64,000 bases of DNA from Burkholderiales bacterium. GTDB taxonomy: Bacteria > Pseudomonadota > Gammaproteobacteria > Burkholderiales > SHXO01. The position numbers and the translations under genes are program-made. This document shows positions 2,319-34,769 of the stretch, one piece after another (the first letter of the stretch is position 1; each line of letters starts with the position of its first letter). The stretch spans positions 186,001 to 250,000 of the forward strand of contig JADZGB010000043.1 of NCBI GenBank assembly GCA_020854105.1. The letters are read 5' to 3'. The notes under the pieces were generated by a model. The model did not search any database and was not told the origin of the DNA. It saw nothing but the letters and a program-made list of their open reading frames with translations.

Positions 2319-2323
2319 ACCGG

Positions 2324-2349
2324 TCTTATGTCTTATATAAGATATCTTA
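2324..2349. promoter_or_regulatory. operator-like array of four TCTTA/TAAGA half-sites
   Basis: TCTTA starts at 2324, 2331 and 2345 and its complement TAAGA at 2338: four half-sites exactly 7 bp apart. They form two overlapping perfect 12-bp palindromes, TCTTATATAAGA (2331-2342) and TAAGATATCTTA (2338-2349). The array lies between divergent mdh and gntR, the usual site for an autoregulated GntR-family protein. Binding by the adjacent GntR protein is inference from position and symmetry. Confidence 0.7.
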
Positions 2350-2391
2350 ACTGGACGCGACGCACGCATTGTGCTAAAAATCGCCGGCCTC

Positions 2392-3150: not shown

Positions 3151-3181
3151 TGCCGCATCGGGAGGACGCGTGGAGTCATCC

Positions 3182-5660: not shown

Positions 5661-5672
5661 AAACCGTTTCGT

Positions 5673-5740
5673 CACAGAGGGCATAGGGGTCACCGAGTCG
5701 GTCCCCTCTCCTGGTCACTGGATTCTTCGTGCCCTCCGTG
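5673..5740. repeat. imperfect inverted repeat between sdhA and sdhB
   Basis: CACAGAGGGCAT (5673-5684) is matched in inverted orientation by GTGCCCTCCGTG (5729-5740), 10 of 12 positions pairing. Inside it AGGGG (5685-5689) can pair with CCCCT (5703-5707), with ACC/GGT closing a short inner loop. CACGGAGGGCAC-like motifs resemble small dispersed repeats seen in environmental proteobacterial genomes. A transcript hairpin affecting sdhA/sdhB stoichiometry is possible but not shown. Confidence 0.45.
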
Positions 5741-5764
5741 TCGTCCGTGGCAAAGGACTTAATC

Positions 5765-6460: not shown

Positions 6461-6500
6461 TCCAGGCCGGCATGGCAACCGGTCTTCTGGCGAGAAAGCG

Positions 6501-6737
6501 ATGAGCGAGGTCGATCGCATCCGCTGGCATTGCCGGCGGGGTCTGCTGGAACTCGATATCGTGCTGGCCCGTTTTCTAGACCGGCATCTCGACGACCTCG
6601 ACCGGATCGAACGCGAGGCCTTCAAGAGCCTCCTGATGCATTCCGATAATGACCTCTGGGACATGATTTCCGGGCGTGCCGAACCTCCGCCGGAAGGGGT
6701 GGAAGCGGGCGTTCTGGAACTGCTCCGGAACGTCTGA
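6501..6737 (+). CDS. sdhE: succinate dehydrogenase assembly factor (FAD flavinylation factor)
   Basis: 78 residues, the expected size of the SdhE/CptB (YgfY, SdhAF2) family. The family motif RRGLLELD occurs near residue 10, followed by acidic helices (DIVLARFLDRHLDDLD) and the SDNDLWDMISG segment. SdhE promotes covalent FAD attachment to SdhA, and its place directly after sdhB fits. The gap of 40 bp to sdhB and 83 bp to gltA suggests it is read in the sdh transcript. Confidence 0.93.
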   Translation: MSEVDRIRWHCRRGLLELDIVLARFLDRHLDDLDRIEREAFKSLLMHSDNDLWDMISGRAEPPPEGVEAGVLELLRNV

Positions 6738-6739
6738 TG

Positions 6740-6820
6740 TGCGAACGCACAATTCCTGGCCTAACCCCATAAACTTCCTATAGCATTGGGAATTTTACGA
6801 TTCCCAGGGTGGAGCAACCC
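6740..6820 (+). promoter_or_regulatory. gltA leader with successive inverted repeats over the ribosome site
   Basis: Three dyads follow one another: TGTGCG-AA-CGCACA (about 6739-6752), TGGGAAT-tttacg-ATTCCCA (6787-6806, 7-bp stem), and GGGT-ggagca-ACCC (6807-6820), whose loop contains the GGAG ribosome site of gltA. The last two can stack as one RNA structure ending at the start codon. No strong -35/-10 pair is recognisable. Confidence 0.45.
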
Positions 6821-8122
6821 ATGACACAGCAGCGCACGGCAACGATCAACTTCAACGACGGCACGCCGACCCTGGAACTGCCGATTCTGGCCGGCACGGT
6901 CGGACCCGACGTGGTCGATATCCGCCCGCTGTACGGCAAGACCGGGAAGTTCACGTACGACCCCGGCTTCATGTCCACCGCCTCCTGCAAGTCCGCCATC
7001 ACCTACATCGACGGCGACAACGGTATCCTGCTCTATCGCGGTTATCCGATCGAGCAACTGGCGCAGCACTGCGACTTCCTGGAGGTATGCCACCTCCTGC
7101 TGAAGGGCGAACTGCCCAAGGCAGCCGAGAAGAAGGAATGGGACGACCGCATCCGCAAGCACACCATGGTGCACGAGCAGCTGGCACGCTTCTACAGCGG
7201 CTTCCGGCGCGACGCGCACCCGATGGCCGTGATGGTCGGCGTGGTCGGCGCCCTGTCTGCCTTCTATCACGACAGCACCGACATCAATGACCCCGAGCAT
7301 CGCGAGATCTCCGCGATCCGCCTGCTGGCGAAGGTGCCCACCATCGCCGCGATGTCCTACAAGTACAACGTCGGCCAGCCCTTCATGCACCCGCGCAACA
7401 GCCTGAACTACGTGGAGAACTTCCTCCACATGATGTTCGGCACGCCATGCGAGGAGTACAGGCCGAATCCGGTGCTGGTGCGCGCCCTGGATCGCATCCT
7501 GATCCTGCACGCCGATCACGAACAGAACGCCTCCACCTCCACCGTGCGCCTGGCCGGGTCCTCGGGCGCCAATCCCTTCGCCTGCATTGCAGCTGGCATC
7601 GCCTGTCTCTGGGGACCCGCGCACGGCGGGGCAAACGAAGCCTGTCTGACCATGCTCGAGGAAATCGGCGACGTGTCGCGCATCGGACAGTACATCGCGC
7701 GGGCCAAGGACAAGAACGACGGCTTCCGCCTGATGGGCTTCGGCCACCGCGTGTACAAGCATTACGATCCGCGCGCGAAGCTCATGAGAGAGACGTGCCA
7801 CGAAGTCCTCGCCGAACTGGGACTACAGAACGACCGGCTGTTCAAGCTTGCCATGGAGCTGGAACGGATCGCCCTCGAAGACGACTACTTCGTCGACAAG
7901 AAGCTCTACCCCAACGTGGACTTCTACTCGGGGATCGTCCAGCGCGCGATGGGCATCCCGACCAGCATGTTCACCGCCATCTTCGCGCTGGCCCGTACGG
8001 TCGGCTGGGTGGCACAGTGGAACGAGATGATCAGCGACCCGGAGCAGAAGATCGGCCGTCCGCGGCAGCTGTTCACCGGCTCGCCCGAGCGCAACGTGGT
8101 GCCGATCGCCAGGCGCGGATAG
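6821..8122 (+). CDS. gltA: citrate synthase (type II, hexameric form)
   Basis: 433 residues. Active-site motifs are present: [12 protein letters not shown], the His of [32 protein letters not shown], and the loop [18 protein letters not shown] with the CoA-binding residues. It condenses oxaloacetate and acetyl-CoA and may also use propionyl-CoA weakly; a dedicated prpC is not in the window. The ATG at 6821 is preferred over an in-frame GTG at 6809 because GGAG lies 6 bases before it. It follows the sdh genes and precedes sucA. Confidence 0.97.
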
Positions 8123-8182
8123 GACAGCCGACAGGCCCGCGGCGGCGGGCAAGCATACAACCTCCAGTCGAGAAGGGGCCCC

Positions 8183-11026
8183 ATGGCGGCGCTGCTGAAG
8201 GAATACCTGGGAACATCCTACCTGTTCGGAGCCAACGCTCCGTTCATCGAGGAGCTCTACGAGACGTATCTGTCCGATCCGGATTCGGTACCTCAGGAGT
8301 GGCGGCGCTACTTCGATCAGCTTCAGCAGCTTCCGGGTGCAGCCGATGTCGCACACGAGCCGATCCGCCAATCGTTCGTGAAGCTGGTCAAGGCACCGCG
8401 ACAGGTTGCCGCCGATGCCGCAACGCCCTCCGTGGCCGCTGCCGCGAAGAAGCAGGTGTGGGTACTGCAGCTGGCCAACAACTACCGCCGCATGGGGTTG
8501 CGGCACGCGAACCTCGATCCGCTCAAGCGTTCCGAGAAGCCCGACGTGCCCGAGCTCGATCCGTCGTTCTACGGGCTCGAGGAATCCGACATGGAGCAGG
8601 TGTTCAACACCGCGTCGGTATTCGGTCCGGACAAGATGCCGCTGCGCGAGATCGTGCGTGCGCTGCGAGAGACCTACTGCGGCACCATCGGTACGGAGTT
8701 CTGGTTCATCGCGGACAGCGCGCAGCGCCGCTGGATCCAGCAGCGCCTCGAAGCCATCCGCTCGCAGCCGAACTATTCGAGCGACTTCAAGCGTTTCATC
8801 CTGGAGCGACTGACCGCCGCCGAGACCTTGGAGAAGTACCTGCATACGCGCTACGTCGGCCAGAAGCGCTTCTCCCTGGAAGGCGGGGACACGCTCATTC
8901 CGCTGCTCGATCACCTGCTGCAGCAGGCGGGCGAGAAGGGCGTGCAGGAGGCCGTGATCGGGATGGCGCACCGGGGACGGCTGAACGTCCTGGTAAACAC
9001 CATGGGCAAGATGCCCAAGGAGCTGTTCTCCGAGTTCGAGGGCAAGCACGCCGATCATCTTCCGTCGGGCGACGTGAAGTACCACATGGGCTTCTCGTCC
9101 GATATCAACACCCCGGGCGGCCCCATGCATCTGTCGCTCGCCTTCAACCCCTCGCACCTCGAGATCGTCAATCCGGTGGTGGAGGGTTCGGTGCGCGCGC
9201 GCCAGCACCGGCGCAAGGATCGCGAGGGCAGGCAGGTTCTGCCGGTCCTGATTCACGGCGACGCCGCGGTCGCGGGGCAGGGCGTGGTCATGGAGACGCT
9301 CAACCTGTCGCAGACCCGGGGCTATCGCACGGGCGGTACCGTGCATATCGTGGTGAACAACCAGATCGGCTTCACCACCTCGGACGTGCGCGACACCCGC
9401 TCGACGCTGTACTGCACCGACGTCATGAAGATGGTCGAGGCACCGGTGTTCCACGTCAATGCGGACGACCCGGAGGCGGTGTGCCTGGTAACGGAGATCG
9501 CGCTCGATTTCCGCACGCAGTTCCAGAAGGACGTCGTCATCGACCTCGTGTGCTTCCGCCGGCATGGACACAACGAGCAGGACGAGCCGATGGTCACGCA
9601 GCCGCTCATGTACAAGAGCGTGAGCGCACATCCGGGAACCCGGCGGCTGTATGCGGACCGCCTGGTGACCCAGGGCATCATCCGTGCCGAGGAAGCCGAC
9701 GAGATGGTGCAGACCTACCGTGGCACGCTCGAACAGGGCTATCACACCAACAAGAACGTCCTGACCAACTTCAATCCGCCGTATGCGGTGGACTGGAGCC
9801 GATTCAAGGGCAGCCGCTGGACCGATCCCTGCACCACGGCCGTGCCGCCGAACGATCTGCAGGCGCTGGGCGGGAAGCTCATCACCGTGCCCGGTGGCTT
9901 CAAGCTGCACTCGCGCGTGGAGAAGGTCATCGCCGACCGCAGGCAGATGATCCTGGGCAAGCTGCCACTGGACTGGGGCATGGCGGAGAACCTGGCCTAT
10001 GCCGCGCTGATCAAGGCCGGATATGGCGTGCGCCTGTCCGGGCAGGACACCGGCCGCGGCACGTTCTTCCATCGCCATGCCGTGCTTCACGACCAGGCAC
10101 GGGAACGCTGGGATGCAGGCAACCACATCCCGCTGCAGCACATCGCCGAGAACCAGCCCGACTTCGTCGCGATCGACTCCGTCCTGTCCGAGGAGGCGGT
10201 GCTCGGGTTCGAGTACGGCTACGCCACCGCCGAGCCGAACGAGCTGGTCGTGTGGGAGGCGCAGTTCGGCGACTTCGCGAATGGCGCACAGGTGGTCATC
10301 GACCAGTTCATCGCCTCGGGCGAAGTGAAGTGGGGGCGGCTGTGCGGGCTCGTCCTCATGCTGCCGCACGGCTACGAAGGCCAGGGGCCGGAGCATTCCT
10401 CGGCGCGCCTGGAGCGCTTCCTGCAACTGTGTGCGGACTACAACATGCAGGTCGTGGTGCCCTCCACGCCGGCTCAGATGTTCCATGTGCTGTGCCGGCA
10501 GATGCTGCGGCCGTTCCGCAAGCCCCTGGTCATCATGAGTCCGAAGAGCATGCTGCGCCACAAGGAGTCGGTATCCAGCCTGGAGGACCTGTCCGCCGGG
10601 GCGTTCCAGCCGGTGATCGGAGAGAGTGACGACATCGATCAGAGCAAGGTACGGCGGGTGGTGTTCTGCAGTGGAAAGGTGTACTACGACCTGCGCGCGG
10701 CGCGCCGCGAACGAGGCATGCAGGATGTCGCCATCGTGCGCATCGAACAGCTCTATCCCTTCCCGCACGACGACTACAAGGCGCAACTCGCGAAGTACCC
10801 GGACGCCCGGCAGGTGGTCTGGTGTCAGGAGGAACCGGGCAACCAGGGCGCCTGGCACCGCATACAGCACTACCTGCTGCGGCATCTGCCCGCGCACCAG
10901 AAGCTGGCCTACGCCTTGCGTCCGTCCTCCGCCTCGCCGGCCGTCGGTTATCTGGCCTTGCACAACGAGCAGCAGAAGGCGGTAATCGAAGCGGCTCTGG
11001 TCGGCACGCAACACAACGACGACTAG
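8183..11026 (+). CDS. sucA: 2-oxoglutarate dehydrogenase E1 component
   Basis: 947 residues, full length. The N-terminal TSYLFGANAPFIEELYE segment is the E2-binding part. The core has GMAHRGRLNVLVNTMGK and a thiamine-diphosphate region (VLIHGDAAVAGQGVVMETLN); the C-terminal half has LMLPHGYEGQGPEHSSARLE and MSPKSMLRHKESVSSLED. It decarboxylates 2-oxoglutarate and passes the succinyl group to the E2 lipoyl domain. Spacing to sucB is 50 bp. A GC-rich hairpin GCCCGC-ggcg-GCGGGC (8135-8150) lies in the 60-bp gap after gltA. Confidence 0.98.
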   Translation: MAALLKEYLGTSYLFGANAPFIEELYETYLSDPDSVPQEWRRYFDQLQQLPGAADVAHEPIRQSFVKLVKAPRQVAADAATPSVAAAAKKQVWVLQLANNYRRMGLRHANLDPLKRSEKPDVPELDPSFYGLEESDMEQVFNTASVFGPDKMPLREIVRALRETYCGTIGTEFWFIADSAQRRWIQQRLEAIRSQPNYSSDFKRFILERLTAAETLEKYLHTRYVGQKRFSLEGGDTLIPLLDHLLQQAGEKGVQEAVIGMAHRGRLNVLVNTMGKMPKELFSEFEGKHADHLPSGDVKYHMGFSSDINTPGGPMHLSLAFNPSHLEIVNPVVEGSVRARQHRRKDREGRQVLPVLIHGDAAVAGQGVVMETLNLSQTRGYRTGGTVHIVVNNQIGFTTSDVRDTRSTLYCTDVMKMVEAPVFHVNADDPEAVCLVTEIALDFRTQFQKDVVIDLVCFRRHGHNEQDEPMVTQPLMYKSVSAHPGTRRLYADRLVTQGIIRAEEADEMVQTYRGTLEQGYHTNKNVLTNFNPPYAVDWSRFKGSRWTDPCTTAVPPNDLQALGGKLITVPGGFKLHSRVEKVIADRRQMILGKLPLDWGMAENLAYAALIKAGYGVRLSGQDTGRGTFFHRHAVLHDQARERWDAGNHIPLQHIAENQPDFVAIDSVLSEEAVLGFEYGYATAEPNELVVWEAQFGDFANGAQVVIDQFIASGEVKWGRLCGLVLMLPHGYEGQGPEHSSARLERFLQLCADYNMQVVVPSTPAQMFHVLCRQMLRPFRKPLVIMSPKSMLRHKESVSSLEDLSAGAFQPVIGESDDIDQSKVRRVVFCSGKVYYDLRAARRERGMQDVAIVRIEQLYPFPHDDYKAQLAKYPDARQVVWCQEEPGNQGAWHRIQHYLLRHLPAHQKLAYALRPSSASPAVGYLALHNEQQKAVIEAALVGTQHNDD

Positions 11027-11076
11027 CCGCTCGGCCGGGCCGACAGCATCGAAGCGAATAGCGAACGGAGAAACGC

Positions 11077-12324
11077 ATGCTGGTTGAAGTCAGGGTTCCG
11101 CAGCTTTCGGAATCGGTTTCCGAGGCAACGCTTCTGACCTGGCACAAGAAGCCGGGAGAATACGTGCAACGCGACGAGAACCTCATCGACATCGAGACGG
11201 ACAAGGTGGTCCTGGAGTTGCCGGCGCCGGAAAGCGGCGTCCTGACCCGCATCGACAAGCCCGACGGGGGGACGGTCGTCAGCAACGAGCTGATTGCCAC
11301 CATCGACACCGAAGCCAGGGCGACTGCCCAGCCGGCTGCCGCCAAGGGCGCAGAAAAGCCGGCGGCGCCCGTCGCGGCCGTCGCCGCGCCGACGCCTGTC
11401 AAGGCGCCATCCTCGGCCTCGGCCGGCAGCCACGGCACGGAGAGCATCGTCATGCCGGCGGCGCGCAAGCTTGCCGCGGAGAAGAACGTCGACCTCGCCG
11501 CCATCCAGGGCAGCGGCCGCGGCGGCCGCATCACCAAGGAAGACGTGGTCGCGCAGATCGCCAGGCCGGCTTCGAAACCGGCACCGGTTGCGCCTCCGGT
11601 GGACGTCGGGCAGCTGCTCGGCGACCGTCCGGAGCAACGCGTCCCGATGTCCCGTCTGCGGCAGCGGGTCGCGGAACGCCTGGTCCAATCCCAGTCCACG
11701 GCTGCCATCCTCACCACGTTCAACGAGGTGAACATGCAGCCGGTGATGGAGATGCGCAAGAAGTACCAGGAGCGCTTCGAGAAGGAACACGGCGTGCGCC
11801 TGGGCTTCATGTCGTTCTTCGTGAAGGCGGCCGTCCATGCGCTCAGGAAGTACCCGCTGGTGAACGCCTCGGTGGACGGCAACGACATCGTCTACCACGG
11901 GTATTTCGACATCGGCATCGCGGTGGGCAGTCCGCGCGGCCTGGTGGTGCCGATCCTGCGCAATGCCGATCAGATGTCGCTGGCGGATATCGAGAAGCAG
12001 ATTGCCGATTTCGGCAAGCGCGCACAGGACGGCAAGCTCTCGATCGAGGAGCTGACCGGCGGCACGTTCTCCATTTCCAACGGCGGCGTGTTCGGTTCGA
12101 TGCTGTCCACGCCGATCATCAATCCGCCCCAGAGCGCGATCCTGGGTGTGCACGCGACCAAGGAACGCCCGGTGGTCGAGAACGGGCAGATCGTGATCCG
12201 GCCCATGAACTACCTCGCTTTATCCTATGATCACCGCATCATCGATGGCCGCGAGGCGGTGCTCAGCCTGGTGGCGATGAAGGACGCGCTGGAGGATCCG
12301 GCGCGGCTGCTGCTGGATATCTGA
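11077..12324 (+). CDS. sucB: dihydrolipoyllysine-residue succinyltransferase (2-oxoglutarate dehydrogenase E2)
   Basis: 415 residues. Residues 1-76 form one lipoyl domain with the lipoylated Lys in [16 protein letters not shown]. An Ala/Pro-rich linker (about 80-115) follows, then an E1/E3-binding domain ([32 protein letters not shown]). The remainder is the catalytic acyltransferase domain ending with the active-site [15 protein letters not shown] second Ala/Pro linker separates the last two. It transfers succinyl to CoA. It lies between sucA and lpdA in complex order. Confidence 0.98.
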
Positions 12325-12432
12325 CGGCCGTGATTCGCCCCGCGTGACTCGCCTGCGGCGCATGAACGAAGCGCGCGGCATCGGCGATCGCGGGAAGAAT
12401 GAATCACGGATCGAGAGTCACGACAAGAGACC

Positions 12433-13863
12433 ATGACCCAACAATTCGACGTGGCAGTGATCGGCGCGGGACCCGGCGGATATACCGCCGCGATCCGCGC
12501 GGCGCAGCTCGGCTTCAAGACCGTGTGCATCGACGACTGGAAGAACACCCAGGGCAATCCCAGCCTGGGCGGCACCTGCCTGAACGTCGGCTGCATCCCG
12601 TCGAAGGCGCTGCTGGAATCCTCCGAAAATTACGAGCGCGCCCTTCACAAGTTCGCCGATCACGGCATCCGCACCAAGGGTGTGAGCGTCGACATCGCGG
12701 CGATGCTGGCACGCAAGGACAAGATCGTCGATACCTTCACCGGCTCCATCGCCCTGCTGTTCAAGAAGAACAAGGTGGCGTCGCTGCACGGCCGGGGAAG
12801 TTTCGTGTCGGCCGGGGAGCGTTTCACTCTGCAGGTCAGGGACGGCGAGCGTGTCGAGGAGATCGAGGCGACGCACGTGATCATCGCCACCGGTTCGGTG
12901 GCACGCCAGCTTCCCGGCATAGCGCTCGACGGCGAGCGCGTGCTGGACAACGTCGGCGCCCTGTCGATGACCGAGATTCCAAGGAAGCTGGGCGTGGTGG
13001 GCGCCGGGGTCATCGGCCTGGAGATGGGCAGTGTGTGGCGTCGCCTGGGGTCGGAGGTCGCCATTCTGGAAGCCCTGCCGTCCTTCCTGCCGGCGGTGGA
13101 CGAGCAGATCGCCAAGGAGGCGTTCCGGGTATTCAACGGACCGCTCGATCTGAAGATCCACACGGGCGTGAGGATCGCCGACGTGAAGGCCGGAAAGAAG
13201 TCGGTGGCCGTGAGCTACGCGGACCGCGACGGCACCACCCACAATGTCGAGTTCGACAAGCTGATCATTGCCATCGGGCGCGTGCCGAACACCGCCGGCC
13301 TGAACAGCGACGCCATCGGGCTGCGGATCGACGCTCGCGGCTACATCGAGGTGGACGAGCACAACCACACCAGCGTGCCGAACGTCTACGCGATCGGCGA
13401 CGTGGTGCGCGGACCGATGCTGGCGCACAAATCCTCGGAGGAGGGCGTTGCCGTGGCAGAAACCATCGCCGGGGAGGCGAGCCACGTCAACATGGACACG
13501 ATTCCCTGGGTCATCTACACCTCGCCCGAGATCGCCTGGGTGGGCAAGACCGAGCAGCAGCTCAAATCGGAAGGCATTCCGTATCGTGCCGGACGATTCC
13601 CGTTCATCGCCAGCGGCCGCGCGCGGGCACTGGGCGAAACCGCGGGCTTCACCAAGATGCTGGCCCATGCGGAAACCGACCGCATTCTCGGCGTCCACAT
13701 CATCGGCCCGTACGCCTCCGAACTGATTGCCGAGGCCGTGGTCGCGATGGAGTTCGGCGCCAGCTCCGAGGATATCGCGCGCATCGTGCACGCCCATCCG
13801 ACCTTGTCGGAAGCGATGCACGAGGCCGCGCTGGGCGTGCACAAGCGCACCCTGAACATCTGA
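12433..13863 (+). CDS. lpdA: dihydrolipoyl dehydrogenase (E3)
   Basis: 476 residues. FAD-binding VIGAGPGGYTAAIRAAQLG at the N-terminus, the redox disulfide in GGTCLNVGCIPSKALLESSE, a NAD-binding GVVGAGVIGLEMGSVW near residue 190, and the dimerisation-domain catalytic His-Glu in HAHPTLSEAMHEAAL. It reoxidises dihydrolipoamide of SucB. The gene ends 31 bp before zapE. It lies in the sucAB operon, so it probably serves mainly the oxoglutarate complex; other E3 genes may exist elsewhere. Confidence 0.97.
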   Translation: MTQQFDVAVIGAGPGGYTAAIRAAQLGFKTVCIDDWKNTQGNPSLGGTCLNVGCIPSKALLESSENYERALHKFADHGIRTKGVSVDIAAMLARKDKIVDTFTGSIALLFKKNKVASLHGRGSFVSAGERFTLQVRDGERVEEIEATHVIIATGSVARQLPGIALDGERVLDNVGALSMTEIPRKLGVVGAGVIGLEMGSVWRRLGSEVAILEALPSFLPAVDEQIAKEAFRVFNGPLDLKIHTGVRIADVKAGKKSVAVSYADRDGTTHNVEFDKLIIAIGRVPNTAGLNSDAIGLRIDARGYIEVDEHNHTSVPNVYAIGDVVRGPMLAHKSSEEGVAVAETIAGEASHVNMDTIPWVIYTSPEIAWVGKTEQQLKSEGIPYRAGRFPFIASGRARALGETAGFTKMLAHAETDRILGVHIIGPYASELIAEAVVAMEFGASSEDIARIVHAHPTLSEAMHEAALGVHKRTLNI

Positions 13864-13894
13864 GTCCCTCCCCGGGGGACCGCGCGCCGGGCAC

Positions 13895-14983
13895 ATGAGC
13901 AGCGAGGCATTCCCCGAGCGCCTGTCCGCAATCGCCCGCGCACACGGCTTCGAACTCGACGAGGCGCAGCGCAAGGCCGCACGTGCTTTTGCCCGCCTCG
14001 ATCGGGAGCTGCGGGCCGCCCAGCCAGAACAGCGGAGACTGTTCGCCCGGTTCCGCAAGCCGCAACGGATCCGCGGAATCTATCTCTGGGGTTCTGTCGG
14101 GCGCGGCAAGAGCTTTCTGATGGACGCGTTCTTCCAGACGACCCCCGTGGCACGCCGGCAACGCGCGCACTTCCATCGTTTCATGCAGCACGTTCACCGG
14201 GAGTTGCGCCTGCTGCAGGGCCAGGAAGATCCGATGCGCACCGTCGCGCAGCGCATCGCCGATGCGGCGGTCCTGCTGTGCCTGGACGAATTCCACGTGG
14301 TGGATATCGGCGATGCCATGCTCATGCGCGGGCTGCTCGAAGGGCTGGCGCACGCGGGCGTGACGGTCGTGACTACTTCCAACCAGCATCCGGATCAGCT
14401 CTACCTGCACGGACTGCAGCGCGGCCAGTTCCTTCCCGCGATCGAGCACATCAAGCGCGACATGGAGGTGGTGGAGATGGCCGGCCCGGACGATTATCGG
14501 CTGCGCGCCCTCGAACAGGCCGGTGTGTATCACGTGCCGCTGGGAGAGGCTGCCGAGCGTGCCCAGCGCGTGGCATTCGAGGCCGTTGCCGGCGAGGCAG
14601 GCACGCCGGACGTGATGCTGGAGATCGATGGCCGCCGCATTGCGGCGCAGCGTGCCGCCGCCGGTGTCGCGTGGTTCGATTTCCACCAGCTGTGCGATGG
14701 TCCGCGCGGTACGGCGGATTACATAGAACTGGCGCGGCGGTACCATACGATCCTGGTATCTGGCGTTCCCAGGTTCGAGGCGCGCATGGCCGAGATCATC
14801 CGCCGCTTCACCTGGATGGTCGACGAGTTCTACGACAGGCGGGTCAAGCTGATCGTGTCCGCGGCAGCAGCGCCTTCGGAACTCTACGCCAGCGTACCGA
14901 CGCGACCCGAGATCGAGCGTACGGTAAGCCGCCTGATCGAGATGCAGACCAACCGCTACCTCAGTCAGCCGCATCTGGCGTAG
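13895..14983 (+). CDS. zapE: cell division protein ZapE (AFG1-family ATPase)
   Basis: 362 residues. Walker A is GSVGRGKSFLMDAF (about residue 68), Walker B LLCLDEFHVVDIGDAM, followed by TSNQHPDQLYLHGLQR, all typical of AFG1/ZapE. In E. coli ZapE interacts with FtsZ and destabilises its bundles under stress; the mitochondrial homologue has a role in respiratory-complex quality control. Placement directly behind sucAB-lpd is a recurrent betaproteobacterial arrangement. No clear ribosome site is visible before the ATG. Confidence 0.93.
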   Translation: MSSEAFPERLSAIARAHGFELDEAQRKAARAFARLDRELRAAQPEQRRLFARFRKPQRIRGIYLWGSVGRGKSFLMDAFFQTTPVARRQRAHFHRFMQHVHRELRLLQGQEDPMRTVAQRIADAAVLLCLDEFHVVDIGDAMLMRGLLEGLAHAGVTVVTTSNQHPDQLYLHGLQRGQFLPAIEHIKRDMEVVEMAGPDDYRLRALEQAGVYHVPLGEAAERAQRVAFEAVAGEAGTPDVMLEIDGRRIAAQRAAAGVAWFDFHQLCDGPRGTADYIELARRYHTILVSGVPRFEARMAEIIRRFTWMVDEFYDRRVKLIVSAAAAPSELYASVPTRPEIERTVSRLIEMQTNRYLSQPHLA

Positions 14984-15025
14984 AGGGTCTTTGGGCAGGT
15001 ACGGATAGAGAATCAAGGAAAACTC

Positions 15026-16018
15026 ATGACGACATTCAATGCGCTGCGCATCTTCAGCGACGACGGAAAGTCCGTGACGAGCCGCCTCGTGGAGATGCGA
15101 ATCGACGACCTGGACGCGGGAGAGGTGGTGATCAGGACCGCCTACTCGAGCGTCAACTTCAAGGATGCGCTCGCGGCTACCGGCAAGGGCCGGATCATCC
15201 GCCGCTTCCCGTGCGTGGGCGGCATCGACGGCTGCGGCACCGTGGTCAACTCGACCGACGCGCGCTTCGAGCCCGGAGACGAGGTCATCGCCACCTCCTA
15301 TGACATCGGCGTCGCGCACGATGGGGGATACGCCGGATACATGCGCCTGCCGGCCGACTGGATCGTCCCGCTGCCGGAGGGGATGAGTCTATTCGACGCG
15401 ATGGCCCTCGGCACTGCGGGATACACGGCCGGCCTGGCGGTGGAGCGCATGGAGCACGACGGCCTGCGTCCGGGCAACGGTCCGGTGCTGGTCAACGGCG
15501 CGACCGGCGGGGTAGGCAGCATCGCGATCGACATCCTTGCCGGCGCGGGCTACGAAGTGGTCGCCCTGACCGGCAAGGAAGCGCAGACCGACTACCTGAA
15601 GGGGCTGGGCGCCAAGGAAGTCATGTCTCGCAGCGCCCTGGACCCGAGCAGGATCAAACCCCTCGACAAGGCGACCTGGGCCGGGGCGGTGGACAATCTC
15701 GGCGGCGAGGCGCTGGCCTGGCTGGCGAGCACGATGCAGGTGGGCGGCACGCTGGCGAGCGTCGGGCTCGCGGCCAGCCACACGCTGAACACCACGGTCA
15801 TGCCTTTCATCCTGCGTGGCGTCAGCCTGCTGGGCATCGATTCTGTGAACACGGCGATGGACGTGCGGCGTAAGGTGTGGAAGCGACTGGCGAGCGACCT
15901 GCGGCCGCGCCATCTGGGCGCGATGACGCGTACGGTATCGCTGCAGGATCTACCGCCGGTGTTCGACGCGCTCATGGCGGTGCAGGCGAGGGGACGCACG
16001 GTGGTGCGGATCGATTGA
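15026..16018 (+). CDS. acuI: YhdH/AcuI-type NADPH quinone oxidoreductase / acrylyl-CoA reductase
   Basis: 330 residues. Medium-chain dehydrogenase/reductase without catalytic zinc; the NADPH-binding motif is VLVNGATGGVGSIAIDILAG, and the family-specific YSSVNFKDALAATGKGRIIR and DPSRIKPLDKATWAGAVDNL segments match the YhdH/YhfP/AcuI subfamily. AcuI reduces acrylyl-CoA to propionyl-CoA. The next gene makes propionyl-CoA from propionate, supporting a propionyl-CoA role. AAGGAA precedes the ATG by 6 bases. The symbol is by family and context; the substrate is inferred. Confidence 0.78.
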   Translation: MTTFNALRIFSDDGKSVTSRLVEMRIDDLDAGEVVIRTAYSSVNFKDALAATGKGRIIRRFPCVGGIDGCGTVVNSTDARFEPGDEVIATSYDIGVAHDGGYAGYMRLPADWIVPLPEGMSLFDAMALGTAGYTAGLAVERMEHDGLRPGNGPVLVNGATGGVGSIAIDILAGAGYEVVALTGKEAQTDYLKGLGAKEVMSRSALDPSRIKPLDKATWAGAVDNLGGEALAWLASTMQVGGTLASVGLAASHTLNTTVMPFILRGVSLLGIDSVNTAMDVRRKVWKRLASDLRPRHLGAMTRTVSLQDLPPVFDALMAVQARGRTVVRID

Positions 16019-27934: not shown

Positions 27935-28744
27935 TTGAGACGGCTCCAGTCACGCGACAACCCGCAGTACAGGCGCATCGCCCGAGTCGCGTCCTCTGCG
28001 CGCGAGCGTCGCAATCAGGGGTCGATCCTGCTCGACGGTCCGCATCTGGTGGATGCGTACCTGAGCGCGTTCGGCACGGCGGGTGTCACGCTCATCGTAC
28101 GTGAGCACGCCGCTGACGATGCCGAGACCCGTGCGCTGATGGCGCGGGTCGACGCTGAACACTCGCTGACGATGACGGACCGGCTGTTCGATGCGCTCTC
28201 ACCGGTGGACACCCCGACCGGCATCATGGCCGTGGCGCGAAGGCCTGATGCGTTGCCTGCGATCCATCCGGAAGGCTTTACCGTTCTGCTGGACGGAATC
28301 CAGGATCCGGGCAACCTCGGCGCCATTCTGCGCAGCGCCGCCGCTGCGGGATGCAGGGAAGCGTACCTGACATCCGCCTGCGCCGACCCCTGGTCGCCGC
28401 GCTGCCTGCGCGGAGGAATGGGCGCCCAGTTCGTGCTACCGATTCATACCAGGCAGTCCCTGCGCGAAGTTGCACAGGCCTTCCGTGGACAGGTGGTCGC
28501 TGCGGCTGCCGCCGGGGAGAGCGAACTGTTCGACGTATCGCTTCCAGCCCAGTGCGCCTTCGTCATCGGCGCCGAGGGAAAGGGCGTCTCCTCCGAACTT
28601 CTCGCCTGCGCGGGCGCGCGCGTTCGCATCCCGATGGCGCGCGGAATCGAATCGCTGAATGCCGCTTCGGCGGCGACGCTCCTGTTCTACGAGTGGGCGC
28701 GACGACATCGGGCGCACTCGGCCGTGTGCGCGCCGCACACATGA
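27935..28744 (+). CDS. TrmH/SpoU-family RNA 2'-O-methyltransferase
   Basis: 269 residues, TTG start at 27935. The N-terminal substrate-binding domain begins with the typical ITSRDNPQ-like LQSRDNPQYRRIARVAS and SILLDGPHLVDAY. The SPOUT catalytic domain has the three motifs LLDGIQDPGNLGAILRSAAA, FVIGAEGKGVSSEL and IPMARGIESLNAASAATLL, forming the knotted SAM site. Targets in this group are rRNA or tRNA riboses; which one cannot be told. It is 6 bp behind the GYF-like gene. Confidence 0.88.
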   Translation: MRRLQSRDNPQYRRIARVASSARERRNQGSILLDGPHLVDAYLSAFGTAGVTLIVREHAADDAETRALMARVDAEHSLTMTDRLFDALSPVDTPTGIMAVARRPDALPAIHPEGFTVLLDGIQDPGNLGAILRSAAAAGCREAYLTSACADPWSPRCLRGGMGAQFVLPIHTRQSLREVAQAFRGQVVAAAAAGESELFDVSLPAQCAFVIGAEGKGVSSELLACAGARVRIPMARGIESLNAASAATLLFYEWARRHRAHSAVCAPHT

Positions 28745-28764
28745 TCCCCGGTAGTATGCTGGTG

Positions 28765-28789
28765 CACAGAGGCGCGCAAGCGCCCTGTG
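28765..28789 (+). promoter_or_regulatory. hairpin with GCAA tetraloop before the acyl-CoA dehydrogenase gene
   Basis: CACAG-a-GGCGC-GCAA-GCGCC-CTGTG: a 10-bp stem with one bulged A and a GNRA loop. No T run follows, so it is not an obvious terminator. A TAGTAT box at 28752-28757 would start transcription at the foot of the hairpin. Confidence 0.5.
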
Positions 28790-28826
28790 GCTCCCACCCT
28801 CACGTCGTTCAACGTGTGAAGCGCTC

Positions 28827-29963
28827 ATGATCCTTACGCAAGAACAGCAGCTGATCCGCGACGCCATGCGTCAGTTCGCCCGCGAGCGGCTCACGCCGAA
28901 TGCTGCCCGATGGGATCGCGATCACGCGTTTCCGCGCGATGCCCTGAAGGAACTCGGGTCGCTCGGCGCGATGGGAATGGTTGTGCCGGAGGAGTGGGAC
29001 GGGGCGGGACTGGACTATCTTTCACTGGTGGTCGCCCTCGAGGAGATCGCGGCCGGCGACGGCGCGACCTCGACCATCGTCTCCGTGCAGAACTCGCTCG
29101 CCTGCGGCATCACCTTGCGATTCGGCTCCGAGGACCAGAAGGCGCAGTACCTGCGGCCATTGGCGCGCGGCGACATGCTCGGTTGCTTCTGCCTGACCGA
29201 ACCCCATGTCGGCTCGGATGCCTCGGCGATCCGCACTTCGGCGGTGCGCGATGCGGATGGCTGGCTGCTCAATGGCGTGAAGCAGTTCATTACCACCGGG
29301 AAGGAAGCGGACGTCGCGATCGTCGTCGCGGTCACCGATCGCGATGCCGGCAAAAACGGCATCTCCTGCTTCCTGGTGCCGACCGATGCGCCGGGATACA
29401 TCGTGGGCCGGCTGGAGGAGAAGATGGGCCAGCGCGCCTCCGACACCGCCCAGATCCTGTTCGAGAACTGCAGGATTCCGCTCGATCACCTTCTGGGTGC
29501 GGAGGGGGAAGGCTACCGCATTGCACTATCCAATCTGGAGGCCGGACGCATCGGCATTGCGGCGCAGGCCGTGGGCATGGCGCGCTCCGCGTTCGAGGCG
29601 GCCCATGCCTACGCGCACGCGCGTGAAGCCTTCGGCAAGCCAATCTTCGAGCATCAGGCCGTCGCCTTCCGGCTGGCGGACATGGCAACGCGACTGGAGG
29701 CGGCGCGGCAGCTGGTGTGGCACGCGGCGGCACTCAAGGATGCAGGACAGCCGTGCCTGATGGAGGCGTCCATGGCAAAGCTGTTCGCGTCCGAGATGGC
29801 GGAGAAGGTCTGCTCGGACGCGATCCAGATCCACGGAGGATACGGCTACGTGAGCGATTTTCCGGTCGAGCGCATCTACCGCGACGTGCGCGTGACGCAG
29901 ATCTACGAGGGCGCGAGCGACATCCAGCGACTGGTCATCGCCCGCCAGCTCGGTGCGGCGTGA
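28827..29963 (+). CDS. acyl-CoA dehydrogenase
   Basis: 378 residues. FAD-binding signature [20 protein letters not shown], the region [19 protein letters not shown], and the C-terminal [20 protein letters not shown] with the catalytic-type Glu in [17 protein letters not shown]. The profile is that of short-chain or branched-chain acyl-CoA dehydrogenases (butyryl/isobutyryl type). It introduces a 2,3-double bond and passes electrons to ETF. It ends 16 bp from the convergent hypothetical gene. The chain-length preference is not deducible. Confidence 0.9.
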
Positions 29964-29979
29964 GGGACGCCGCTGCCGA

Positions 29980-30612
29980 TCAGAGTTGTTCGATGCCCCA
30001 TTCGGCCGCGGCCTCGCGCAGCACGTTCGCGCGCAGTGCCTCCACGCCGCCAAGCGCGAACTTCCAGGACTTTCCGTTGCCGGGATTGACGAATTCGATG
30101 CGATCGAAGCCTGCCTGGCGGGCAGAGGCGGGGAGATCGGTCTCGGTGGCGAGCTTCTTCGCGAGGCTGTCGTGCATTTGCGCGAAATCGACGAAGGCCA
30201 CCCATGCGCCGCGCTCCTCGCGGGCGCGAACATGCATGCCCAGTCCTTGTGCGGACAGGGCGCTTCCGACTCGCTGCACCCAGGTGTCGGCGGCGAGACG
30301 GATGCGCTGTTCGGCGGCCGCCGCCGCGTCCTTGCGTACGAACGCTTCCACCTGCACCTTGAAAGCACGAGCGATCTCGGTGCGATCGGGGGAGACGGGC
30401 AGGGACTTGAGTGTCCGGGCAATCTCAAGTGCGTGCAATTGCCACTCGACGGATGCGCTGGGAAGGCTGCGCAGCGCGACCACCTTCTCGTGCAGAATAG
30501 CGGCCTCGCTGCTCGCCCTGGCGACCGTGCCGGGGACGAGAAGCGGGAGGGCGAAGATGGCCAGCGACAGAGCGCGCAACGTGCGCAGGACGGCGGTAGC
30601 AGTGCGTGCCAT
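29980..30612 (-). CDS. exported protein of unknown function
   Basis: 210 residues; ATG at 30612 with GGAGG 6 bases upstream. A twin-basic start and hydrophobic stretch (SLAIFALPLLVPGTVA) form a signal peptide ending near ARASS. The mature part is helical and charged, with Ala/Arg-rich segments (RKDAAAAAEQRIRLAADTW) and ends in AEWGIEQL. I recognise no domain. It is divergent from the hydroxyacid dehydrogenase operon and convergent with the acyl-CoA dehydrogenase. Confidence 0.6.
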   Translation of the reverse strand: MARTATAVLRTLRALSLAIFALPLLVPGTVARASSEAAILHEKVVALRSLPSASVEWQLHALEIARTLKSLPVSPDRTEIARAFKVQVEAFVRKDAAAAAEQRIRLAADTWVQRVGSALSAQGLGMHVRAREERGAWVAFVDFAQMHDSLAKKLATETDLPASARQAGFDRIEFVNPGNGKSWKFALGGVEALRANVLREAAAEWGIEQL

Positions 30613-30705
30613 GGGATGCCTCCGGTTCGACAGTGCACACCGACTATCGGCGCACGTAGGACGATGTTGAGTCGGATGCAGCACTCGAGGAGCGCAGGGG
30701 CAGAC

Positions 30706-31617
30706 GTGAGCACGGAGATCGGATTCATCGGCCTGGGCGCCATGGGGCAGGGGATGGCGCTCAACCTGCAACGCAAGGGATTCAGCCTGGTCGTCTACGA
30801 CCTTCGTCAGCAGCCCGTGGCAAAGCTGACCGCTGCCGGGGCACGGGCCGGCGAGTCGGTCGCCGATGTCGCCCGCCAGTGCAGAATCGTCGTCACGATG
30901 CTGCCCGGATCCGCGGAAGTCGAGCAGATCATCCTGGGCGACGACGGTGTGCTCGCGAATTCCGCATCGGGCACGCTGGTGATGGACATGAGTACCGTCG
31001 ACCCGGCCACGACCGATGCACTCGAGACGCGGTTGCGCCAGTCCGGGATGCGCTTCGTCGATGCGCCGGTGGGGCGGCTGGCGAGCCACGCGCAGGCTGG
31101 AGAGAGCCTGTTCATGGTCGGCGCGTCGCCGGAGGACTTCATCGTGGTGCGTCCCCTGCTGGAGGCGATGGGCACGACCATTCACCACTGCGGTGCCCCC
31201 GGAACAGGCATCCGGACCAAGCTGGTCAACAACTTCCTCGCCATCGGTCTGTGCCAGATGAACGCCGAGGCGCTGACACTGGCTGCGCGCTTCGGCCTCG
31301 ATCTCGAGACCACGCTGGCCGTGCTGGGCGGCACAACGGCCACGAACGGCCAGCTCAGGCTCAATTACACGTCCAAGGTGCTGCGCGGCGACGTCGAGCC
31401 GGGCTTCACCGTCGACTTGGCGCACAAGGACATGTCCCTGGTGGTCAATGCGGCGAACGCCGCCAGCGTGCCGCTGCCCAGTGCTGCCATCGTACGCGAA
31501 TCGCTGTCACTGGCCCGTGCCGGCGGCTTCGGGAACAAGGATTTCTCGGCCCTGCTGGACCATTGGTGCGAGCGTGCTCGCGTCGCACCGGTTCGATTGA
31601 AAGGAGAGCATCGGTGA
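30706..31617 (+). CDS. beta-hydroxyacid dehydrogenase (3-hydroxyisobutyrate / sulfolactaldehyde reductase family)
   Basis: 303 residues from the GTG at 30706, with AGGGG 5 bases upstream; ATGs at 30664 and 30676 would add a tail without similarity. The N-terminal Rossmann motif is IGFIGLGAMGQGMALNLQRK; the substrate-loop DAPVGRLASHAQAGESLFMV and the catalytic-Lys segment GTGIRTKLVNNFLAIG follow. The stop overlaps the next gene (GTGA). In the same operon lie the two halves of a sulfopyruvate-decarboxylase-like enzyme, so a C3 sulfonate or related hydroxyacid is a plausible substrate. Confidence 0.82.
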   Translation: MSTEIGFIGLGAMGQGMALNLQRKGFSLVVYDLRQQPVAKLTAAGARAGESVADVARQCRIVVTMLPGSAEVEQIILGDDGVLANSASGTLVMDMSTVDPATTDALETRLRQSGMRFVDAPVGRLASHAQAGESLFMVGASPEDFIVVRPLLEAMGTTIHHCGAPGTGIRTKLVNNFLAIGLCQMNAEALTLAARFGLDLETTLAVLGGTTATNGQLRLNYTSKVLRGDVEPGFTVDLAHKDMSLVVNAANAASVPLPSAAIVRESLSLARAGGFGNKDFSALLDHWCERARVAPVRLKGEHR

Positions 31618-32144
31618 GTTCAGGCTTCACGTTCGCGCGCGACGACTGGCGTGCGGAGATATTCGCGGCACTCGGGCGCCAGAACGTCGTGCAGGTCGCC
31701 TACGTGCCGGATGCCGGCCATGCCAGCCTGATCCAGGCGGCACATGCGGATCCGCAGAAGAAGGTGACCGTCCTCACCACCGAGGAGGAGGGCGTCGCGC
31801 TGCTGGCCGGCGCGGATCTCGGCGGCGAGCGCGGAGTGCTGCTGATGCAGTCCTCCGGGGTGGGCAACTGCGTCAACATGTTCTCGCTCCTGCGCAGCTG
31901 CGGCTTTCCCTTGGTGACCATCGTGACGATGCGCGGCGAATGGGCCGAGTTCAATCCCTGGCAGATTCCCATGGGGCAGGGCACGCCGAAGACCTTCGAG
32001 CATGCCGGGTTCATCGTCTATCGTGTCGACCAGCCGGAGGATGTCGGTCCGGTGACCGAATCGGCCATCCGGATCGCCTACGAGTGTGTCCAGCCGGTGG
32101 CCATTCTGCTGTCGCAACGCCTCATCGGTGCGAAGAAGTTCTGA
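31614..32144 (+). CDS. sulfopyruvate/phosphonopyruvate decarboxylase-like alpha subunit (TPP enzyme N-terminal domain)
   Basis: 176 residues, GTG start with AAGGAG 7 bases upstream. It is the isolated pyrimidine-binding domain of a thiamine-diphosphate decarboxylase: the cofactor-activating Glu is in TTEEEGVALLAGADLGGER, followed by LLMQSSGVGNCVNMFSLL and TMRGEWAEFNPWQIPMG. This resembles ComD and the N-terminal half of phosphonopyruvate decarboxylase. The partner domain is encoded by the next gene 17 bp on. The substrate is inferred only by family. Confidence 0.75.
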   Translation: MSSGFTFARDDWRAEIFAALGRQNVVQVAYVPDAGHASLIQAAHADPQKKVTVLTTEEEGVALLAGADLGGERGVLLMQSSGVGNCVNMFSLLRSCGFPLVTIVTMRGEWAEFNPWQIPMGQGTPKTFEHAGFIVYRVDQPEDVGPVTESAIRIAYECVQPVAILLSQRLIGAKKF

Positions 32145-32161
32145 TTCGGAGAAACGGGAAC

Positions 32162-32728
32162 ATGCTCGAACGCAGACACACGGTGGCCACGCTGCTGGCC
32201 GATCGTTCGTCCGACCTGCTGGTGGTGCCAGGCCTCGGATCCTCCACCTACGACGTGGCTGCCGCGGGGGATCATCCGCACAATTTCTATCTCTGGGGTG
32301 CGATGGGCGGAGCGGTGTGCATCGGCCTCGGACTGGCTCTCGCTCAACCGAAGCGGCGAGTGCTCGTGATCACCGGCGACGGTGAACTGCTGATGGGATT
32401 GGGAAGCCTTGCCACGGTGGGCGCAAGGTGCGTTTCTAACCTCGCGATCGCCGTCCTGGACAACGAGGTGTACGGCGAGACCGGCGGCCAGTCCAGCCAT
32501 ACCGCGCTCGGCACCGACCTGGCGGCGGTCGCCCTGGCTTGCCGGTTCCGTGCCGCGAGCACCATCCGGTCGGCTCAGGAACTGCCGGCGCTGCGGGAGA
32601 TGCTGCTGCAGGCGGCCGGGCCCGTGCTGGGTGTGATCAAGATCGCATCGAGCGAAGTGCCCCGCTTTCTTCCCGAGAGGGACGGCCACGCGATTCGAAC
32701 GCGGTTTCGCGGCAGCCTGCTGGGCTGA
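32162..32728 (+). CDS. sulfopyruvate/phosphonopyruvate decarboxylase-like beta subunit (TPP-binding domain)
   Basis: 188 residues. The thiamine diphosphate/Mg motif is [19 protein letters not shown] with the downstream [16 protein letters not shown], the spacing expected of GDG-X25-N. It aligns with ComE and with the C-terminal half of phosphonopyruvate decarboxylase. Together with the preceding gene it should form an alpha2beta2-type decarboxylase. No sulfoacetaldehyde acetyltransferase (Xsc) or phosphoenolpyruvate mutase gene is present in the window, so the pathway stays open. Confidence 0.75.
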
Positions 32729-32882
32729 GTCGATCCAGCGCGCGTCCCGCGCATGCCGTGGACGACGACATGACAGGCCCCAGCTGCACCGGACGCTCAA
32801 TTCCCACCCGAGCGAGTCGATACCTGGGAACCCAGAGAGCGTCGCTGACGACGCCTGTTCTTGTCATCCTGTCCGAGGATCC

Positions 32883-34769
32883 ATGCGAACTCTGTCGTCC
32901 CGTCTCATCGGCTTCGTCGTCGTTTCAGTCGCAGGCGTAGCCCTGCTGCTCACTGCGTTCTCCTATACCCGCATGCGCGATCAAGTGCTGTCTGCACTCG
33001 ATCGCGAAGTCGATCAGGTGGCTGCACTGCAGGCGGCCAGGATCGCGGCCTGGCTCGATTCCAAGCGCCGCCTGATCGACACTGCGGCGAAGGCGGCCGC
33101 GAGCGAGGACGAGGCGCTGCGTGCCATGCTGCTGCGTACCAGGCTGGCTGGGGATTTCTCGTACTCCTACATGGGGTTCCCGGACAAGCGGCTGGTTCAC
33201 GGGGACGACACCCCGGTGCCTGCAGGCTTCGATCCCACGATTCGCCCCTGGTACAAGATGGCGATGGAGCGCGGCAAGGTGTCGGTGACCGCGCCGTTCA
33301 TGAGCGTGTCGGACCACGCACTCATCGTATCGGTTGCCGCGCCGGTGCAGCGCAATGGCCAGTTCCTCGGCGTGGTCTCGGCGAACGTGGTCCTGGAGAA
33401 GATGGTCGGCAGCGTGCTGGGACTGAAGCTGGTCGGTGACAGCCACGCATTCCTGGTCTCGAAGGACGGCGTGGTGATCGGTCACCGGCAGGCGGACGCC
33501 GCCCTCGGATCGGTATCGAAGCTGATTGCCGGACTGACAGCCGACAGCCTGGCGGCCCTGGCAACGCAATCGCGCTCCGCCGAGGTCGCCTATGCCGACG
33601 GAACGCCCTATCTGCTCACGGTCCGCGCAATTCCGGATTCGGACTGGCTGGTCGCCGTGATGGTCGACCGGAACGCTGCCCTTGCGCCGCTGCGCGAACT
33701 GCTCATCACGTTGATGGCAGCGGCGCTGATCGCCATCGCTGTCGCCGCTGGCCTGGGTGTATTTGCCTCTCGCGCCCTGCTGGGCGGATTGCGCTCGTTG
33801 CGCGACGCAATGGCCGACATCTCCGGTGGTGAGGGCGATCTCACCGTCCGGCTCGAGGTGCGTGGCGAGGACGAGGTCGGCCAGGCGGCCGGTGCCTTCA
33901 ACCAGTTCCTCCAGCGGCTGCACGGCATGTTCCAGGACGTGCAGGCACGCGCCCACCAGGTCACGGGCGACGTCGCCCGGGCAGCGCAGACCACCACGGA
34001 AGTGAGCAGGAACGTGGCACGCCAGTCGGAGGACCTCGGCGCAACCGCAGCGTCCATCGAGGAAGTCACGGTCAGCATCACGCATATCGCCGATGTGGTC
34101 AAGGACGCCGAATCGGTGCTGGCGAGCGCCGATGTGCGCTCGTCCGAGAGCGTGGAGTCGGTCGAGCGGGTGAAGCAGGAGATCGCGCGGGTGGCCGGCA
34201 CGATGGGACAACTGTCCACGGTCGTGGATCGTCTGGGCAGCCGCTCGAAGGAGATCTCCGGCATCGTCGATGCAATCAAGGACATAGCCGATCAGACCAA
34301 CCTACTTGCACTGAATGCGGCAATCGAAGCGGCACGCGCAGGTGAACAGGGACGCGGCTTCGCCCTGGTCGCGGACGAGGTGCGCAAGCTGGCGGAGCGC
34401 ACCGCGCAGGCAACCGTCGAGATCGGCCACATGATCGAGGCCATTCGCAGCGACATGGACAGTGCGGTCGTCGGGATGGGTACGACGCAGCAGAACGTGT
34501 TCTCGAGCGTCTCGCTGGTGGAGGTGGCGTCCGACGGGATCCGCGGGATCCGCATGCAGATGAGCGACGTGGTGTCACGCATGAAGGACATCTCGAGCGC
34601 AACCGCAGAGCAAGCAGCCGCAACGAACGAGATGGCACGCCGTGCAGAGCAGATCAACGCGGTGTCGCAAGCCAGCAGCGCCGCGCTGCACGAGACCGAA
34701 TCGTCGCTGCGCGCGACCAGCGCGCTGGCTGAGAGCCTGGGCAGATCGGTGGCGCGGTTTCGGCTGTGA
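32883..34769 (+). CDS. methyl-accepting chemotaxis protein with periplasmic Cache domain
   Basis: 628 residues. TM1 about 8-28, a periplasmic double-Cache sensor about 35-265 ([19 protein letters not shown] is the Cache signature), TM2 about 275-297, HAMP about 300-352, then a long coiled-coil signalling domain. The CheA/CheW-binding tip ([20 protein letters not shown], then [20 protein letters not shown]) is at about 465-510. The C-terminus lacks a CheR-binding pentapeptide. Cache receptors usually detect amino or organic acids; the ligand is unknown. The 154 bp upstream show no FliA box I would defend. Confidence 0.93.

Follow-up and report, generated by a model that had tools for sequence, protein, structure and literature searches.

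According to the accessible part of a 2025 report (PMC12746152), two-subunit decarboxylases that depend on thiamine diphosphate (ThDP) are rare and were known, before LumKL, only from the biosynthesis of rhizocticin and coenzyme M. The enzymes of these two pathways, RhiEF and ComDE, are reviewed in the available portion of PMC12141560, in which RhiEF (PDB 9IZ3/9IZ4) appears as a heteromeric ThDP-dependent phosphonopyruvate decarboxylase. LumKL, as far as the accessible text of PMC12746152 goes, is a two-subunit quinoxaline carboxylate decarboxylase encoded in a lumichrome-catabolic cluster, and the context of the sulfolactaldehyde reductase YihU is covered in the accessible part of PMC11489063. 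The window, i.e., the whole stretch of 64,000 nucleotides analysed here, lies in contig C43 of the 4.07-Mb genome of a Burkholderiales bacterium and holds, at positions 30706-32728, three genes of the same (plus) strand, which encode a beta-hydroxyacid dehydrogenase (H) and the putative halves of a split ThDP-dependent decarboxylase (A and B, together AB). The preliminary description placed the genes at the same coordinates and regarded them as a compact operon of a hydroxyacid dehydrogenase and a split ComDE-like ThDP enzyme, which both the coordinates and the domain models bear out. AB belongs to a large, mainly proteobacterial clade, set apart from the decarboxylases of sulfopyruvate and phosphonopyruvate with which it was compared. 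Judged by sequence, this clade is a genuine branch of split ThDP decarboxylases, which is widespread, in many cases loosely annotated and repeatedly accompanied by a dehydrogenase.

When named genomes were scanned with 16 aligned A proteins, 582 relatives of A were obtained (E 1e-3), some of them possibly outside the clade. The best 80 of the 582 (55-73% identity) were kept as named loci; since they are the closest to A, frequencies among them hold for that neighbourhood and not for the whole clade. Among plasmid records, 40 contained a match. Pairing by hidden Markov models identified 163 fetched loci in which an A-like gene adjoins a B-like one, a recurrence beyond chance; ComDE-type pairs and some duplicate fetches are counted in this number. 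Herbaspirillum robiniae and Methylobacterium nonmethylotrophicum are among the carriers. Clade members score 235-297 with the A profile, which was built from such members, and all other sequences score 128 or less. Set against the rarity stated for two-subunit ThDP decarboxylases in the accessible part of PMC12746152, AB pairs are frequent: the clade is represented by 117 of the sequences compared, occurs on catabolic plasmids and is represented in 17 of 80 relatives of the host (50 families of one order), a count from which G054 and G029 are left out because their hits are 33-35% identical and the G054 pair falls among the outgroups of the tree. All four members of the genus carry an AB-type A together with the aldehyde dehydrogenase discussed below, although the A-like hit of G002 has an internal stop; the genomes of G002 and G003 are incomplete.

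In a quick maximum likelihood tree of A and B with 57 rows (dereplication left 46 of the 117 clade members and 11 of the 20 others), all 46 clade rows are split from all 11 others at an SH-like approximate likelihood ratio (SH-aLRT) support of 99; the tree is without bootstrap, has long outgroup branches and includes no archaeal ComDE. The outgroups are bacterial ComDE, fused Ppd-like proteins (L189 and L191, so called from long open frames), a pair from Priestia and a second, Bradyrhizobium-type lineage. Fixed residues draw the same line. The aspartate of VPD (D33) and the serine of QSS (S80) in A, and the glutamate of ETG in B, are each present in 117/117 clade members, whereas the same columns hold C, N and S in 9/9 ComDE sequences (VPC/QN/STG; six of the nine called ComD exceed the TIGR03845 cut-off and three lie just under it) and in 3/3 Ppd-type sequences. 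RhiE, with VPC and QNSG against VPD and QSSG in A, differs likewise, and the eight other non-ComDE pairs all carry the aspartate of the AB clade but not its glutamate.

With ComDE, AB shares two small adjacent genes for the PYR and PP halves, the PYR-domain glutamate (117/117 A proteins; we take the column of E57 to be this catalytic residue) and the GDG-X-N motif (117/117 B proteins), i.e., the features by which the two-subunit ThDP decarboxylase class is recognised. Unlike ComDE, AB remains under both NCBIfam cut-offs: A reaches 104.9 bits with TIGR03845 (cut-off 147.95), and B reaches 120.8 bits with TIGR03846 (cut-off 221.5) and 142.3 bits with PRK06163 (cut-off 240). The phosphonopyruvate decarboxylase model TIGR03297, which describes a fused chain, gives 52.8 bits for A and 106 for B, both under its cut-off of 312.5. 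In Pfam, A is a sub-threshold TPP_enzyme_N and B a TPP_enzyme_C over the cut-off. Among solved structures, B is closest to RhiF (RhiEF, 9iz3), and RhiEF is one of three hits of A, for which the best relative is RhiE by single sequence and 9u8r by profile; the pair 9u8q/r ranks with RhiEF as the best solved relatives of AB, and the literature search found no paper on 9u8q/r/s. Current annotations of clade proteins range from phosphonopyruvate decarboxylase or aldehyde dehydrogenase to just thiamine pyrophosphate-binding protein, and VPD, QSS and ETG could be used as easily read signs that a pair should not be labelled a sulfo- or phosphonopyruvate decarboxylase. No paper on the AB clade or the H-A-B operon was among the literature matches listed, in a search that largely left subscription papers aside. 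Those matches agree with the preliminary description, which suggested an undescribed route. The description would have been refuted by a clade with another proven substrate, but no proven substrate was found for the clade in which both subunits fall.

A consistent companion of AB is an aldehyde dehydrogenase (ALDH). Its ortholog, assigned by identity alone (69-74% to the Variovorax ALDH), is present in 14/17 AB genomes and 1/63 others (Fisher P 6e-12) or, counted by family, in 8/10 AB families and 0/40 others (P 8e-8); one further hit at 50% (G059) stands outside the ortholog count of 15. In 10 of the 14 genomes ALDH lies on a different contig from A, so that physical linkage is no explanation for the co-occurrence, and in the remaining four (G015, G021, G048, G062) it lies within 6 kb. 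The host's own copy, 73% identical, is encoded on contig C48, where its neighbours include a zinc alcohol dehydrogenase, a PanE-like reductase and an RraA-like aldolase. The alcohol dehydrogenase recurs in six and the PanE-like gene in five of 12 ALDH regions examined, with genes called by a home-made caller that sometimes returns shadow frames (the calls for L261 were unusable). The co-occurrence singles out ALDH as an enzyme that could be coupled with AB in assays to identify the substrate. The ALDH that is paired with H in Variovorax has a 62% homologue in the host, on contig C41; in a region of that contig (L242, 8956-13016), the second gene downstream of the ALDH2 homologue encodes a full-length acetolactate-synthase-like ThDP enzyme.

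The gene neighbourhood adds an indication of the kind of substrate. Dereplication left 76 clade loci, 54 of them with 5 kb or more on each side. Counted up to a distance of 6 kb from A, genes for ALDH occur in 17 of these loci, an acyl-CoA dehydrogenase (ACAD) in 15, LysR in 13, CaiB in 13, TctC in 11, MaoC in 9, MmgE/PrpD in 8 and H in 8 (the window counted); these counts were made by tblastn with hand-set identity thresholds and cover genes of the reference set only. ALDH and LysR genes also recur beside AB in annotated plasmid regions. Those CaiB neighbours that were scanned are similar to CoA-transferases for oxalate, glutarate and mesaconate, and the lyase neighbours to RipC/CitE, in each case under the curated cut-offs. 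Because CaiB, MaoC, the RipC/CitE-like lyase, TctC and MmgE/PrpD occur near other AB loci, a carboxylate substrate appears likely. The neighbourhood of AB in the relatives presumably resembles the itaconate cluster of Pseudomonas.

Two more specific links were tried and rejected. A glutaryl-CoA route (2-oxoadipate to glutarate) disagrees with the scores of the four AB-linked ACADs scanned, 206-219 bits against a glutaryl-CoA dehydrogenase cut-off of 470; one AB-linked ACAD searched against the PDB matched no chain at E 1e-60. The acyl-CoA dehydrogenase of the window itself (28827-29963) is probably not functionally tied to the operon, being just 34-36% identical to the AB-linked ACAD, parted from H by a gene on the opposite strand and missing from the locus of the sister species G003.

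We favour, with moderate confidence, a model that links AB, ALDH and H. A and B would form one two-subunit ThDP-dependent decarboxylase, which would convert a 2-oxo acid, most likely one with a further carboxylate, to CO2 and a semialdehyde. The aldehyde dehydrogenase encoded on C48 would oxidise the semialdehyde to the acid, while H would interconvert the same or a closely related semialdehyde and a hydroxy acid with NAD(P), providing either a second way into the pool, by oxidation of the hydroxy acid, or a redox outlet. AB and ALDH would constitute the core, and H would be an optional partner fitting the same aldehyde pool. The superfamily of H includes 3-hydroxyisobutyrate dehydrogenase (HIBADH), tartronate semialdehyde reductase and 2-hydroxymethylglutarate dehydrogenase, which act on pairs of semialdehyde and hydroxy acid.

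The linkage of H to AB is recurrent. Genes of the H subfamily (57-62% identity, GRLA motif; orthology again assigned by identity alone) lie within 4 kb of AB in seven of the 80 named loci (L049, L054, L070, L092, L102, L108, L112) and beside AB in two plasmids (Methylobacterium currus, Paracoccus yeei), where chance would give about 0.2 cases in 80 genomes, by a rough estimate assuming 5 Mb and one H each. The arrangement varies: H is upstream of AB on the same strand in the window, L108 and L029, divergent from AB in L024, L049, L054, L092 and L112, and downstream of AB together with ALDH in L070 and L102. Placed on the AB tree, the H+AB label requires seven changes, at least five of them forced by starred branches, against an average of 9.4 for shuffled labels; 14 of 500 shuffles needed as few. 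Elsewhere, H-subfamily genes without AB in the fetched flanks lie near ALDH, ABC or TctC transport, or acyl-CoA genes.

Several observations weigh against the proposed model. The corresponding locus of the sister species G003 retains A and the flanking genes (B is mostly past the contig end) and lacks both H and the acyl-CoA dehydrogenase, which indicates that H is not essential. A close copy of H was found in just three of the 80 relatives; within the genus, it was found in the window species alone, two of the other three members being incomplete. In the 76 loci H was not found together with CaiB or the AB-linked ACAD. The carboxylate context therefore belongs to AB loci other than those bearing H, and the substrate of the window AB may differ from that of the CoA-linked clusters. 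Three AB genomes (G005, G013, G061) are without the ALDH ortholog and G067 has ALDH without AB, while the genome-level association tests are inflated by phylogenetic relatedness. Two of the three characterised two-subunit relatives use phosphonate or sulfonate substrates. Xsc is weakly associated with AB, being found in 4/17 AB genomes and 3/63 others (P 0.03) or, by family, in 4/10 and 3/40 (P 0.02), which speaks either for a sulfonate substrate or for larger catabolic genomes. Finally, H is closest to sulfolactaldehyde reductase, and the arginine of its PVGR motif could bind a sulfonate, the role that we assume for this residue in YihU.

An extension of the favoured model, which we regard as speculative and rather unlikely as it stands, would make AB part of a widespread undescribed catabolic module. 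AB would act on branched 2-oxo dicarboxylates (e.g., 4-methylene- or 4-methyl-2-oxoglutarate), the resulting C5 semialdehydes would be oxidised to acids of the itaconate/methylsuccinate type, and these would enter a path of CaiB, ACAD, MaoC and CoA lyase, with H as a recurrent redox side branch. It is known that 4-methyleneglutamate occurs in peanut, and a glutamate-dehydrogenase-like gene in plasmid clusters of peanut-associated Bradyrhizobium would fit such a source. One of these clusters (L028, Bradyrhizobium guangxiense plasmid, 57-16017) contains AB, this gene, ALDH, CaiB, MaoC and MmgE/PrpD, as well as a gene annotated as cysteine dioxygenase; a glutamate-dehydrogenase-like gene also adjoins ALDH in G067 (L257).

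Improbable, too, is a sulfonate route, in which AB would be a diverged sulfopyruvate decarboxylase and H a reductase of sulfolactaldehyde/2,3-dihydroxypropane-1-sulfonate or of sulfoacetaldehyde, with isethionate or sulfoacetate excreted by a genome without Xsc. One argument for it comes from H. A group of 21 rows, supported at SH-aLRT 99, unites the dehydrogenase with its relatives and YihU, the two YihU-type rows standing on a long branch, and YihU is the nearest characterised clade. PVGR is present in H, in the YihU of L254 and in 6sm7 (3-sulfolactaldehyde reductase, the best solved relative of H; L255, the other YihU-type row, escaped the motif pattern), whereas most other superfamily members of the set, GarR and Hgd among them, have PVSGG. 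The best NCBIfam model of H is likewise that of sulfolactaldehyde 3-reductase (PRK15461/NF012005), which H matches with 275.5 bits, under the cut-off of 348. The scores are lower for the HIBADH model TIGR01692 (195.2 against a cut-off of 291.6) and the tartronate semialdehyde reductase model TIGR01505 (223.3 against 340.75), and all three proteins of the operon miss the cut-offs of the specific NCBIfam models listed for them. The preliminary description was right to see a partner of the HIBADH/sulfolactaldehyde-reductase type. However, H and YihU share only about 40% identity, and no sulfoquinovose gene is among the scanned neighbours.

The sub-threshold matches of A and B to the ComD and ComE models also accord with a sulfonate route, as does the presence of Xsc over its cut-off in nine of 26 searched AB genomes; of the six among the 26 whose AB locus also holds H, those of L049 and L092 have it and those of L070, L102, L108 and L112 do not. 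Against it, no protein of the host reaches the 676 bits required for Xsc (highest score 314), nor does any of its three genus mates (0/4 members, two of the mates being 68-78% complete); as a control, none of 14 named control genomes lay over this cut-off, though other searched genomes did. No Xsc (at least 40% identity over 200 aa) was found in the examined AB loci or in ComDE loci, and since the latter lack it too, absence from a locus is by itself weak evidence. The remark in the preliminary description that xsc and ppm are missing holds for the region 27935-34769, where seven proteins were scanned and none was Ppm or Xsc. For xsc it extends, at the cut-off used, to the whole genome; for ppm it is confined to these neighbours, no genome-wide search having been made. 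SuyAB was not shown in the host, as its two UxaA-family proteins match the galactarate dehydratase model only, under its cut-off. One of the two is the large half (399 aa) of a split pair (L244, G000:C2, 5506-8401; small half 110 aa), which adjoins a sugar-acid dehydratase of the enolase superfamily and could still be a candidate for SuyAB.

Comparison with a bacterial ComDE operon points the same way. In the positive control L194, the sole ComDE locus annotated, both subunits exceed their cut-offs (160.4 and 231.9). This alphaproteobacterial locus (G145:C1:388000-402000, 176-8150) carries a tagatose-bisphosphate-aldolase-like gene, an aldehyde dehydrogenase resembling succinate semialdehyde dehydrogenase (just under its cut-off) and a 2-hydroxyacid dehydrogenase ahead of ComD and ComE; by eye, peptide-type ABC transport genes follow downstream, and the locus possibly encodes a route from sulfolactaldehyde to sulfoacetaldehyde. 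Its aldolase, aldehyde dehydrogenase and 2-hydroxyacid dehydrogenase are missing beside the AB pair of the window. Together with the position of the pair outside ComDE, Ppd-like proteins and the Priestia pair, the substitutions in the fixed columns (D for C, S for N and E for S) and the carboxylate and CoA-pathway genes near AB in relatives, this turns the evidence against the sulfonate route raised in the preliminary description; a sulfopyruvate decarboxylase is ruled against by score, tree, residues and context, and AB is unlikely to be a sulfonate enzyme.

On the phosphonate side, no phosphonate gene is among the scanned neighbours of AB, and an annotation of the phosphoenolpyruvate (PEP) mutase family occurs in 1 of 12 plasmid regions, that of Priestia, whose pair lies outside the AB clade. 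Besides the ThDP pair and the PEP-mutase-family gene, this region (L032, Priestia megaterium plasmid, NZ_CP085446.1, 5882-14570) encodes two ATP-grasp proteins and an ornithine carbamoyltransferase, and it resembles a cluster for phosphonate peptide biosynthesis.

It is quite improbable that AB is, like LumKL, a two-subunit decarboxylase of heterocyclic or aromatic acids and that H catalyses a reaction unconnected with it. Split ThDP decarboxylases can use a heterocyclic carboxylate that has some likeness to a keto acid, as the accessible part of PMC12746152 indicates, and the VPD aspartate of AB is common to the eight other non-ComDE pairs. However, the reaction of LumKL as given there yields no aldehyde, whereas the ALDH link of AB predicts one; the neighbours of AB include ALDH, CaiB, ACAD and TctC, and the likeness of the two enzymes is one of description alone, with nothing placing AB near LumKL. 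Very improbable, and the weakest of the alternatives, is a carboligase or aldehyde-oxidising ThDP enzyme whose ketol product H would reduce: the fold includes acetolactate synthase and other ligases, which B matches weakly, but the two-subunit members described in the accessible parts of PMC12141560 and PMC12746152 (ComDE, RhiEF, LumKL) are all decarboxylases, and the ALDH link fits an aldehyde product.

The features of the operon are collected in Table 1. H belongs to the 6PGDH/HIBADH superfamily by Pfam and NCBIfam. The overlap of A with H likely reflects translational coupling; B starts 17 nt past the stop of A, with GGAGA upstream of its ATG.

Table 1. Features of the H-A-B operon (positions in the window)
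Feature	Position	Strand	Remarks
H, beta-hydroxyacid dehydrogenase	30706..31617	+	303 aa; start codon GTG (30706), stop codon TGA (31615-31617)
Domains and motif of H			NAD_binding_2 and NAD_binding_11; motif DAPVGRLASH; clade sister to sulfolactaldehyde reductase YihU
GTGA, 4-nt overlap of A start with H stop	31614..31617	+	
A, ComD-like subunit, putative PYR half of two-subunit ThDP-dependent decarboxylase	31614..32144	+	176 aa; GTG start
VPD motif of A	31704..31712	+	VPC in compared ComD, Ppd-like and RhiE; D in 117/117 clade members
E57 of A	31782..31784	+	E in 137/137 compared sequences
B, ComE-like subunit, putative PP half of the same decarboxylase	32162..32728	+	188 aa; ATG start; GDG...N motif
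GDG of the ThDP/Mg-binding GDG-X(n)-N motif of B	32375..32383	+	

Two further observations concern the surroundings of such pairs. On a plasmid of Salinigranum rubrum (L162, 3691-9128), a distant AB-like pair has in its vicinity MmgE/PrpD, an oxidoreductase of the HIBADH type and a gene with the annotation tricarballylate dehydrogenase TcuA. In the window, the operon is followed immediately, in the same orientation, by a gene for a chemoreceptor with a dCache domain (32883-34769); within 6 kb the window alone scored, and chemoreceptor annotations or matches are also present in the flanks of L024, L066, L085 and L088.

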